Positions 44,347 to 60,459 of a stretch of DNA of 64,000 bases are shown here, in pieces. Under the pieces are notes generated by a model that saw nothing but the letters and a program-made list of their open reading frames with translations, made no database searches and was not told the origin of the DNA. The position numbers and the translations under genes are program-made. Origin of the DNA: Kaistia sp. 32K (GTDB taxonomy: Bacteria > Pseudomonadota > Alphaproteobacteria > Rhizobiales > Kaistiaceae); contig NZ_AP024269.1 in the NCBI RefSeq assembly GCF_016629525.1, positions 4,600,001 to 4,664,000 on the forward strand. The letters are read 5' to 3'. The stretch's first letter is position 1. Each line of letters starts with the position of its first letter.

Positions 44347-44422
44347 GCCGCTTTAGCTCAGCTGGTAGAGCACATCATTCGTAATGATGGGGTCAGGTGT
44401 TCGAATCACCTAAGCGGCACCA
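44347..44422 (+). tRNA. tRNA-Thr (anticodon CGT)
   Basis: 76 nt including the encoded CCA. The acceptor stem GCCGCTT pairs with AAGCGGC; the D arm TAGCTCAGCTGGTAGAGC, the anticodon stem CATCA/TGATG with loop TTCGTAA (anticodon CGT at 44380-44382) and the T arm with GTTCGAATC are all present. It reads ACG codons. tRNA genes are frequent integration sites and the sequence after this one looks accessory. Confidence 0.97.
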
Positions 44423-59326: not shown

Positions 59327-59535
59327 CAGGCCGGTTACGTCAGCGGAAGCGACTTATATTGCACTGCACCATGACGTCCACGTCGAATGTTGCTCTGCAT
59401 CCAGCGCAGGGCAGGCATGAGTTTTTTCGCAGTGCTCATTTCTGCGACCGCCGACTAAATTCAAATCATCAGAACGGCGACAGAGAGATCGGGCGCCACT
59501 GATAGTCCGAATGGCCGGCGTGAAAGGAACAGACG

Positions 59536-59685
59536 ATGGTCAGCCTCGTTGCCTCCTACAAGACCTGGATGAAGTATCGCGAGACCCGCAGCGAGCTTTC
59601 GCGGCTCGACAACCGCGAACTGAGCGATCTGGGCATCAATCGCGCCGACATCAAGGCGATTGCCAAGCAGGCCGCCGGATACTGA
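59536..59685 (+). CDS. DUF1127 (YjiS-like) small protein
   Basis: 49 aa. Core SELSRLDNRELSDLGINRAD then IKAIAKQAAG is the DUF1127 pattern: a basic helical small protein. AAAGGA lies 6 nt before the ATG. In Rhodobacter sphaeroides the related CcaF1 is made from a transcript that also yields the CcsR sRNAs, and the same array is seen directly after this gene. It probably acts in RNA turnover or stress response. Confidence 0.92.
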   Translation: MVSLVASYKTWMKYRETRSELSRLDNRELSDLGINRADIKAIAKQAAGY

Positions 59686-59702
59686 GAATTTCCCAGTTCG
59701 TT

Positions 59703-59818
59703 GGGGAACGAACCTCCTCCCTCGTTCCCTGCGATTAGGTGCCCCACAAACCTCCTCCCTTGTGTGGCACCATCAACTAAGGCGCCCGTCGACCTCCTCC
59801 CCGACGGGCGCTTTTTTT
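59703..59818 (+). ncRNA. Three-hairpin CcsR/cuckoo-type sRNA array
   Basis: Three hairpins in a row, each with the identical 10-nt loop ACCTCCTCCC: 59704-59729 (8-bp stem GGGAACGA), 59739-59770 (11-bp stem GTGCCCCACAA with one mismatch) and 59782-59811 (10-bp stem GCGCCCGTCG). The last is followed by seven Ts, so it also terminates the transcript. The loops carry an anti-Shine-Dalgarno sequence (CCUCC). Position just after a DUF1127 gene equals the CcsR1-4 arrangement in Rhodobacter. Confidence 0.9.
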
Positions 59819-59958
59819 ATGCGCGTTTCCAAGCGCACCGCGCCATCGGCGCCGATCCCGAACGATCTCCCCGCCTGCCCCTTGAAATCGATGCCGCCGC
59901 ACGCCCATCTGCGTTTCCGCAACGCGGACGCGGACGTCCGCGAACCATCGGGGTCAAC

Positions 59959-60459
59959 ATGGCGCTATCGATCTACGAAGCTTCGCTTCCGGTCTTCATC
60001 CGCTCGTTCGGAAATCTCCAGGCGATCCTCGACAAGGCCGTGGAACAGAGCGTCCGCGACGGCATCGATCCGGCGACGCTGATCGAGGCGCGGCTCGCGC
60101 CCGACATGCTGCCGCTCTCGGGCCAGGTGCAGCGCGCCAGCGACACCGCCAAGGGCGCCGCCGCGCGGCTCGCCGGCATCGACAATCCGAGCTTCGCCGA
60201 TACCGAGACGACGTTTCCCGAACTGAAGGCCCGCATCGGAAAGACCGTCGCTTTCCTGAATTCGGTCAGGCCCGAGCAGCTCGAGGGCAGCGAAACGCGG
60301 ACGATCTCGATGCGCAACGGCGCGGTCCAGCTCGACGGCCGGACTTATCTGTTCACCCATGCGCTGCCGAACTTCTTCTTCCACGTCTCGACCGCCTATG
60401 GCGTGCTGCGCCACAAGGGCATCACGATCGGCAAGGCGGATTTCCTCGGCAACCGCTAG
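59959..60459 (+). CDS. DUF1993 protein
   Basis: 166 aa, all one domain. SFGNLQAILDKAVEQ, ARLAPDMLPLSGQVQRASD then AKGAAARLAG, FPELKARIGKTVAFL and the terminal FFFHVSTAYGVLRHKGITIG then KADFLG are the family marks. It is helical and DinB-like in fold, with no assigned function. The ATG at 59959 starts the domain; the longer frame upstream runs through the sRNA array and is not used. Confidence 0.9.
   Translation: MALSIYEASLPVFIRSFGNLQAILDKAVEQSVRDGIDPATLIEARLAPDMLPLSGQVQRASDTAKGAAARLAGIDNPSFADTETTFPELKARIGKTVAFLNSVRPEQLEGSETRTISMRNGAVQLDGRTYLFTHALPNFFFHVSTAYGVLRHKGITIGKADFLGNR

Follow-up and report, generated by a model that had tools for sequence, protein, structure and literature searches.

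An ar14-family small RNA behind a DUF1127 gene in Kaistia and a conserved LsrB/VtlR-like block upstream of the protein gene

To which RNA family does the array of three hairpins behind a small DUF1127 gene of Kaistia sp. 32K belong, and where does its transcription start? The array lies in a 64,000-nt stretch of the genome (contig NZ_AP024269.1, positions 4,600,001 to 4,664,000; hereafter the window), and genome-wide searches covered the 5.35-Mb single-contig genome that contains it. A 2011 survey, in its available part, proposed to unite three- and four-hairpin arrays with this loop in a single family with a role in stress adaptation (PMC3927594), and the available extracts of a later paper describe the DUF1127 link of such arrays under the name CIN1 (PMC10253847). 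Both the array family and its link to DUF1127 are already known, and the window locus is a further member of ar14.

The array and its assignment to ar14

The coordinates are collected in Table 1. The DUF1127 stop codon is followed, after 7 nt, by the 124-nt ar14 stretch on the plus strand, for which exactly three hairpins are predicted (-56.8 kcal/mol, z = -7.03; none of 200 shuffles equally stable). The 10-nt loops of all three hairpins read ACCTCCTCCC. Three hairpins with a common loop and a T7 tail had been noticed in the preliminary description, and both sequence and fold confirm them in place. The intrinsic-terminator scan, which admits loops of 3–8 nt only, called no terminator at the locus. 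With both strands counted, CCTCCTCCC occurs three times in the window, each time as an array loop; this count alone is unremarkable, as shuffled sequences contain 0.75 copies on average and at least three copies in 5 of 100 shuffles. The ordered and spaced loop triple, searched as an exact pattern, matches this genome twice, at the window locus and at one paralogue, and its backwards control does not match it at all. Chance origin of the array was rejected on the fold z-score together with the spaced triple, whose backwards control is empty here. The exact triple is absent from the remaining 384 genomes in the class-wide sample (385 in all), and one of them (G563) has two matches to the backwards control; with this genome as the sole match, the exact-motif search is too strict for mapping the family.

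Table 1. Positions of the features discussed (window coordinates, except for the two viral contigs)
Feature	Position	Strand	Basis or remark
Putative LsrB/VtlR-type box TGCA-N6-GCAG	59396..59409	+	differs at one position from the NfeR1 form TGCA-N6-GCAT
Putative weak -35 region GTGCTCA	59432..59438	+	(G/C)TGCTCA in 6/6 orthologues
Putative -10 hexamer CTAAAT	59455..59460	+	59 nt downstream of box start; nTAnnT at exactly 59 nt in 48/51 loci
DUF1127 gene, 49 aa	59536..59685	+	PF06568, 54.6 bits, cutoff 23.3
ar14 small RNA, model positions 1-123 of 123	59693..59816	+	RF02344, 80.2 bits, gathering cutoff 58.8
Hairpin 1, loop 59712-59721	59698..59734	+	fold
Hairpin 2, loop 59750-59759	59738..59771	+	fold
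Hairpin 3 (terminator), loop 59792-59801, T7 run 59812-59818	59779..59818	+	fold and sequence
Viral ar14 array, contig L274	5113-5233		three hairpins
Viral ar14 array, contig L256	5196-5318		three hairpins

The DUF1127-ar14 pair is flanked by a DUF1275 gene upstream and a DUF1993 gene downstream. The fetched flanks of five syntenic relatives contain DUF1275 in five cases and DUF1993 in four, and the DUF1127 proteins of Kaistia granuli and K. adipata share 98% identity with that of the window, those of K. terrae and K. defluvii 79–81%. A coding reading of the frame at 59701-60459, which runs through the array in the DUF1993 frame, was rejected: the RNA model and the two-sided stem changes account for the stretch. 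This frame starts with TTG and crosses the array into DUF1993, and automatic annotation could place the DUF1993 start too early. The only other above-cutoff Rfam match in the window is a tRNA gene at 44347-44419.

The array had originally been likened to the CcsR RNAs, and a covariance search with the cuckoo/CcsR model had been suggested. The CcsR1 model (RF02791) gives a weak match of 27.1 bits (E = 0.00023) vs. a cutoff of 65.3, and CcsR1 membership was rejected, as was membership in anti-hemB (21.6 bits vs. a cutoff of 49.5). In contrast, the ar14 model is covered completely and scores above its cutoff (Table 1). The anatomy is that of ar14 as well, with three hairpins, each bearing an unpaired CCUCCUCCC, on variable stems. 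By score and anatomy, the window locus belongs to Rfam ar14, the family of Sinorhizobium NfeR1. With a DUF1127 gene immediately before it in the same orientation, the array has the arrangement of CcsR and CIN1 loci, and the more general claim of the preliminary description, a cuckoo-type anti-Shine-Dalgarno RNA after a DUF1127 gene, is borne out.

Stem changes were compared at two levels. In six syntenic loci (the window, K. granuli, K. adipata, K. terrae, K. defluvii, and genome G010), the loops are identical and the stems show paired changes. In 5 of the 45 loci of the genus, the core is missing from at least one loop, and these were dropped from a stem test on the remaining 40; the core loop letters are invariant in this set because its loci were chosen for three TCCTCCC motifs. 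Here all 25 distinct rows have canonical pairs at the inner four positions of hairpin 2, pair 2 occurring in five pair types, and when right arms were re-dealt, 0 of 2000 sets paired as well, for each of the three hairpins. An RNAalifold consensus of 43 genus loci, free of loop selection (of the 45, L067 and L069 (partial) were excluded), has two-sided changes at 12 of 19 predicted pairs; hairpin 1 is absent from it. Conservation of the loops in close relatives, on which the preliminary description had staked its case, holds: they are identical in the six syntenic loci and nearly fixed genus-wide while stems vary on both sides.

This genome contains five DUF1127 genes and three ar14 loci above the cutoff, each after a DUF1127 gene; TCCTCCC is absent from both strands within about 1.5 kb of the two genes without ar14. 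All 14 genomes searched in the same genus have ar14 matches at E <= 0.001, from 2 to 5 per genome. The search that included these 14 genomes gave matches in 37 of its 61 genomes (23 above the cutoff), and a search of an order-wide sample gave matches in 103 of 297 genomes (55 above the cutoff), both under stricter filters by which weak matches are lost. In the bacterial family (G000-G027), 59 ar14 loci were fetched and 52 of them are preceded by DUF1127, a count over related and hence not independent loci, as are the other counts across loci given here. Of the seven exceptions, L020 and L039 score above the cutoff, whereas the matches of the other five (L032 and L066-L069) are weak. Measurements on linked loci refer to 51 of the 52; L029, which has no promoter block, was left out. 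The distance from the DUF1127 stop codon to the ar14 start has a median of 6 nt and is at most 40 nt in 50 of 51 loci, so there is scant space for a separate RNA promoter. In 37 of 51 loci the spacer between the stop codon and stem 1 contains AATT, which is no more than compatible with RNase E cleavage.

The block upstream of DUF1127

Among orthologues, a block upstream of DUF1127 is visibly more conserved than its surroundings. Its approximate form in the 51 linked loci is TGcTGCtcTGCatcanncGCAnngCaGcCATGcg...TGCtCa, with a CTATAT-like hexamer after it. The accessible portions of the literature give the LsrB/VtlR box as GCAT-N3-TG-N3-T (PMC8844928, PMC7486931) and place a box TGCA-N6-GCAT at -72 to -57 of the S. 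meliloti PnfeR1 promoter (PMC10746234). The common form TGC[AG]-N6-GCA is present in 51 of 51 linked family loci measured and absent from the 52nd, L029; nTAnnT follows 58–60 nt from it in 50 of 51, at exactly 59 nt in 48. The exact GCAT-N3-TG-N3-T, on either strand, occurs in 35 of 51 upstream regions vs. 3.4 in dinucleotide shuffles, and the exact NfeR1 box in 16 of 51 vs. 1.5. A longer VtlR motif (PMC12595884) matches all 51 regions with 2–5 mismatches, better than shuffles and never exactly. Both the exact GCAT-N3-TG-N3-T and the spaced pattern are missing from 44 of 44 upstream regions of other genes of this genome (the genes with 300 nt of upstream sequence available), and TGC[AG]-N6-GCA is missing from both DUF1127 genes without ar14 in this genome. 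Among the linked loci, the window has one of the weaker boxes, with two mismatches in the GCAT-N3-TG-N3-T register (start 59406). The distance from box to hexamer is 59 nt here vs. 60 nt for NfeR1, if the NfeR1 -10 element sits at the usual -12. On sequence grounds, the conserved block before DUF1127-ar14 fits the published LsrB/VtlR box and the NfeR1 promoter spacing.

The preliminary description had suggested looking for an upstream stress promoter, and the available part of PMC10253847 assigns an RpoHI/RpoHII promoter to the CcsR operon of R. sphaeroides. The conserved block of Kaistia resembles the LsrB-activated NfeR1 promoter instead. Its -35 region is TGCTCA-like and, compared by eye, unlike the RpoH1 element CTTGAA given for S. 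meliloti in the accessible text of PMC8844928, the one RpoH element compared. A literature search at the level of titles and abstracts, which left subscription journals largely uncovered, returned no published statement on an LsrB-type promoter before DUF1127-ar14 units. What is new here is the conserved LsrB/VtlR-like block upstream of DUF1127 in 51 of 52 linked ar14 loci.

Loci without the protein gene show where the block goes when the RNA stands alone. In the family, seven loci lack DUF1127, and among these the spaced pattern was found only in L039 and, as a weaker match, in L020. In L039, a Kaistia ar14 locus, it has the 59-nt distance and stands directly before the RNA, about 82 nt before the ar14 start; judged by its sequence, this locus is a natural case of the cassette without a protein gene. 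We also considered 28 further, mostly strong ar14 loci from other families, namely 24 of 25 order-level loci (L102, at a contig end, was excluded) and L004, L070, L071, and L073; the order-level loci come from the top of the best matches listed and lean to strong members. For nine of the 28, the 1 kb upstream contains no DUF1127, and in eight of these the exact LsrB consensus stands directly before the RNA, the exception being L073. In all 19 linked loci the exact consensus occurs on either strand within 260 nt before a DUF1127 start (raw count). The distance from the stand-alone box to nTAnnT is 47–48 nt in five of the eight loci and 54 nt in L088 and L004, with no such hexamer in L070, and plus-strand boxes of Kaistiaceae have 49 nt to nTAnnT in 12 of 14 cases. 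Weaker ar14 loci from other families fit less well. Of the nine remaining loci, which include L072 and L076, seven were tested (L026, L028, L030, L031, L074, L075, and L077); within 600 nt, none of the seven has an exact box on the plus strand, and L031 and L075 carry one on the minus strand. The box thus tracks the start of the transcription unit, be it DUF1127 or a stand-alone RNA, and this is the main reason to place DUF1127 and the RNA on one transcript, from which the RNA is probably cut.

Regulator, targets, and competing readings

The query for the regulator was the LysR protein whose gene adjoins the AbcR RNA in a relative (L115), called LsrB from the published gene order. This genome contains one clear orthologue (E = 7e-129, 62% identity); 37 other LysR matches have E-values of 1.5e-32 or worse and identities up to 36%, over partial stretches only. 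The orthologous gene (3423754-3424659 of the genome contig) immediately follows a gene for thioredoxin reductase (TIGR01292, 401 bits, cutoff 343), and a conserved trxB-vtlR order is stated in the available part of PMC7486931. The LsrB orthologue notwithstanding, the genome (G000) has no ar15/AbcR match at E <= 0.001; the same model at the same threshold matches four of four genomes of two other families, three of them above the cutoff. Since AbcR is not matched here, the three ar14 copies may alone bear transporter control, an inference from the search result.

The pattern GGGAGGA-N5-9-ATG has 87 distinct sites in this genome, of which the 67 whose open frame spans 80 aa or more were kept. 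An equally long Shine-Dalgarno variant, AAAGGAG, served as the control, with 25 of 37 sites kept under the same rule; this control set is small, and one of its members (L157) itself contains GGAGGAGG. ABC solute-binding proteins, counted by eye from Pfam, account for 24 of 67 GGGAGGA genes vs. 3 of 25 control genes (two-sided Fisher p = 0.038), and ABC components of any kind for 31, one exporter included, vs. 4 (p = 0.008). Peripla_BP_4 proteins, with 83 family matches genome-wide, are encoded by 14 of the 67 genes and none of the control genes. The predicted richness in ABC transporters agrees with the targets of NfeR1; it may be partly due to strong ribosome-binding sites of highly expressed transporter and solute-binding genes generally. 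The sequestering of RNA-binding partners, which the preliminary description ascribed to the CcsR RNAs, is not reported in the accessible texts; the mode shown for NfeR1, according to the available text, is base pairing with ribosome-binding sites (PMC10746234).

The window RNA most likely works like NfeR1. Both have the same length and three hairpins, each with CCUCCUCCC, the third of which is the terminator; an LsrB-type box stands at a matching distance from a -10-like hexamer, and ABC-transporter genes are among the predicted targets. The difference is in the promoter: NfeR1 is a 123-nt transcript with its own promoter, whereas here the promoter-like block precedes the DUF1127 gene, with the box and the -10-like hexamer about 230–300 nt before the RNA and not directly in front of it. 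Family membership, covarying structure, the DUF1127 link, the promoter-like block, and the LsrB orthologue are read from the sequences, and we infer regulator binding, co-transcription, cleavage, and target repression. We regard as likely a scheme in which an LsrB-type promoter yields a DUF1127-ar14 transcript whose released 3' end blocks ribosome-binding sites of nutrient-uptake genes. The small RNA would be encoded within the 3' untranslated region of the DUF1127 mRNA. An LsrB/VtlR-like LysR regulator would activate a sigma-70-type promoter upstream of DUF1127; transcription would pass the gene, enter the three hairpins, and end at the third; and a cut just after the DUF1127 stop codon would free the RNA. 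Its loops, with the core UCCUCCC, would pair with Shine-Dalgarno sequences of the GGGAGGA type, chiefly those of genes for ABC nutrient uptake, and the pairing would block translation of the bound mRNAs. The weak box of the window and the absence of the block from L029 speak against this scheme, as do the five family loci without DUF1127 that lack the spaced pattern and the weaker loci of other families that lack an exact box.

A CcsR-type unit would be an RpoH-controlled DUF1127-sRNA operon, matured by RNase E with the aid of the DUF1127 protein and acting mainly in stress defence and C1 metabolism. Such a unit shares much with the locus studied here. In CcsR1-4 with CcaF1 of Rhodobacter sphaeroides, a DUF1127 gene is directly upstream, the loop motif is the same, and the RNAs, like probably ours, are cut from one transcript; the available parts of PMC10253847 and PMC8625941 report ccaF1-CcsR to be co-transcribed and processed by RNase E. 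The CIN1, or cuckoo RNA, loci, as defined in the accessible text of citing papers, likewise combine DUF1127 with a CcsR-like array. The weak match to the CcsR1 model may also be counted in favor of this reading, but its score is far under the cutoff, four RNAs in R. sphaeroides compare with one three-hairpin RNA in the window, and the conserved block here is LsrB-like, with a TGCTCA-like -35 region, where R. sphaeroides has an RpoHI/RpoHII promoter. We therefore consider a CcsR-type unit unlikely.

The remaining readings dispense with either the common transcript or the activity in trans. Were the RNA promoter to lie inside the end of DUF1127, co-location with this gene would be incidental, as the stand-alone NfeR1 might suggest. 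One sigma-70-like site is indeed found at 59660-59689 vs. 0.2 expected, but its hexamers are not conserved in orthologues, and the conserved box and -10 element stand upstream of DUF1127, which makes an internal promoter very unlikely. The smallest probability, a very slim one, goes to hairpins that act only in cis, as terminator and mRNA-stabilizing 3' end of DUF1127. Hairpin 3 is a terminator and the array starts 7 nt after the stop codon, as a purely structural 3' end would. Conserved loop letters on varying stems serve neither termination nor stabilization, however, and disfavor a cis-only role; stand-alone ar14 copies exist, and NfeR1 acts in trans, as stated in the available part of PMC10746234.

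The DUF1127-ar14 unit with its LsrB-type block connects, as far as the accessible sources go, two literatures that are otherwise treated apart, on LsrB-controlled NfeR1 RNAs and on DUF1127-linked CcsR RNAs. In the available portions of the regulon studies, VtlR is an activator of DUF1127 genes and of AbcR2 in Brucella; in Agrobacterium it activates AbcR1, VrsA, and Atu1667. Those portions treat DUF1127 genes and small RNAs as separate targets and do not mention ar14 tails. If the promoter is LsrB-driven, small RNAs should be looked for at the 3' ends of DUF1127 genes of LsrB/VtlR regulons before phenotypes are credited to the protein. Searches of titles and abstracts, with subscription journals largely uncovered, found no report on LsrB/VtlR with DUF1127-linked ar14, on phage ar14, or on Kaistia small RNAs.

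Viral arrays and tandem copies

The spaced triple also matches 54 viral contigs (L248-L301) with 55 arrays, of which 48, on 47 contigs, pass the three-hairpin folding test; at least one array (L255) resembles a coding repeat on visual inspection. Rfam scans of 20 of the 54 viral loci gave ar14 above the cutoff in all 20. DUF1127 was found upstream of none of the 55 arrays. GCAT-N3-TG-N3-T lies within 110 nt of 32 viral arrays, and 31 of these 32 boxes stand 48 nt before a CTATnT hexamer. One similarity group comprises 40 of the contigs, each of which encodes a helicase of the same kind; the helicase gene adjoins the array in L274 and L256 (Table 1). The helicase beside the L274 array has matches in 317 phage records, and a second protein beside it in 11, one annotated as Gp157-like and the best from Rhizobium phage RHph_X2_25; the corresponding region of this phage has no TCCTCCC. 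Neither the L274 nor the L256 stretch has a close DNA match among GenBank phages. At lower identity, the L274 array region again has none, and that of L256 has one 52-nt match, on a Sinorhizobium plasmid. The viral arrays are apparently phage-borne copies of the ar14 RNA.

An LsrB-box promoter and three anti-Shine-Dalgarno hairpins may form one cassette that occurs alone (NfeR1), as the tail of a DUF1127 gene (Kaistia), or beside a phage replication helicase; a virus would then use the host redox regulator to make an RNA that lowers translation of host transporters. This idea is tentative, and we hold it to be somewhat doubtful. If it is true, VtlR-target DUF1127 genes may matter partly via the RNA behind them.

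Some loci of the order carry more than three motifs. Loci L110, L111, and L112 (1280-1605), from one family of the order, have nine consecutive TCCTCCC motifs after a DUF1127 gene. Nine motifs in three groups, resembling tandem ar14 copies, follow two consecutive DUF1127 genes in L091, L094 (1520-1960), and L092 (1203-1605). Locus L076 (480-1190) contains two three-motif groups, with an exact GCAT-N3-TG-N3-T 86–87 nt before the first motif of each.
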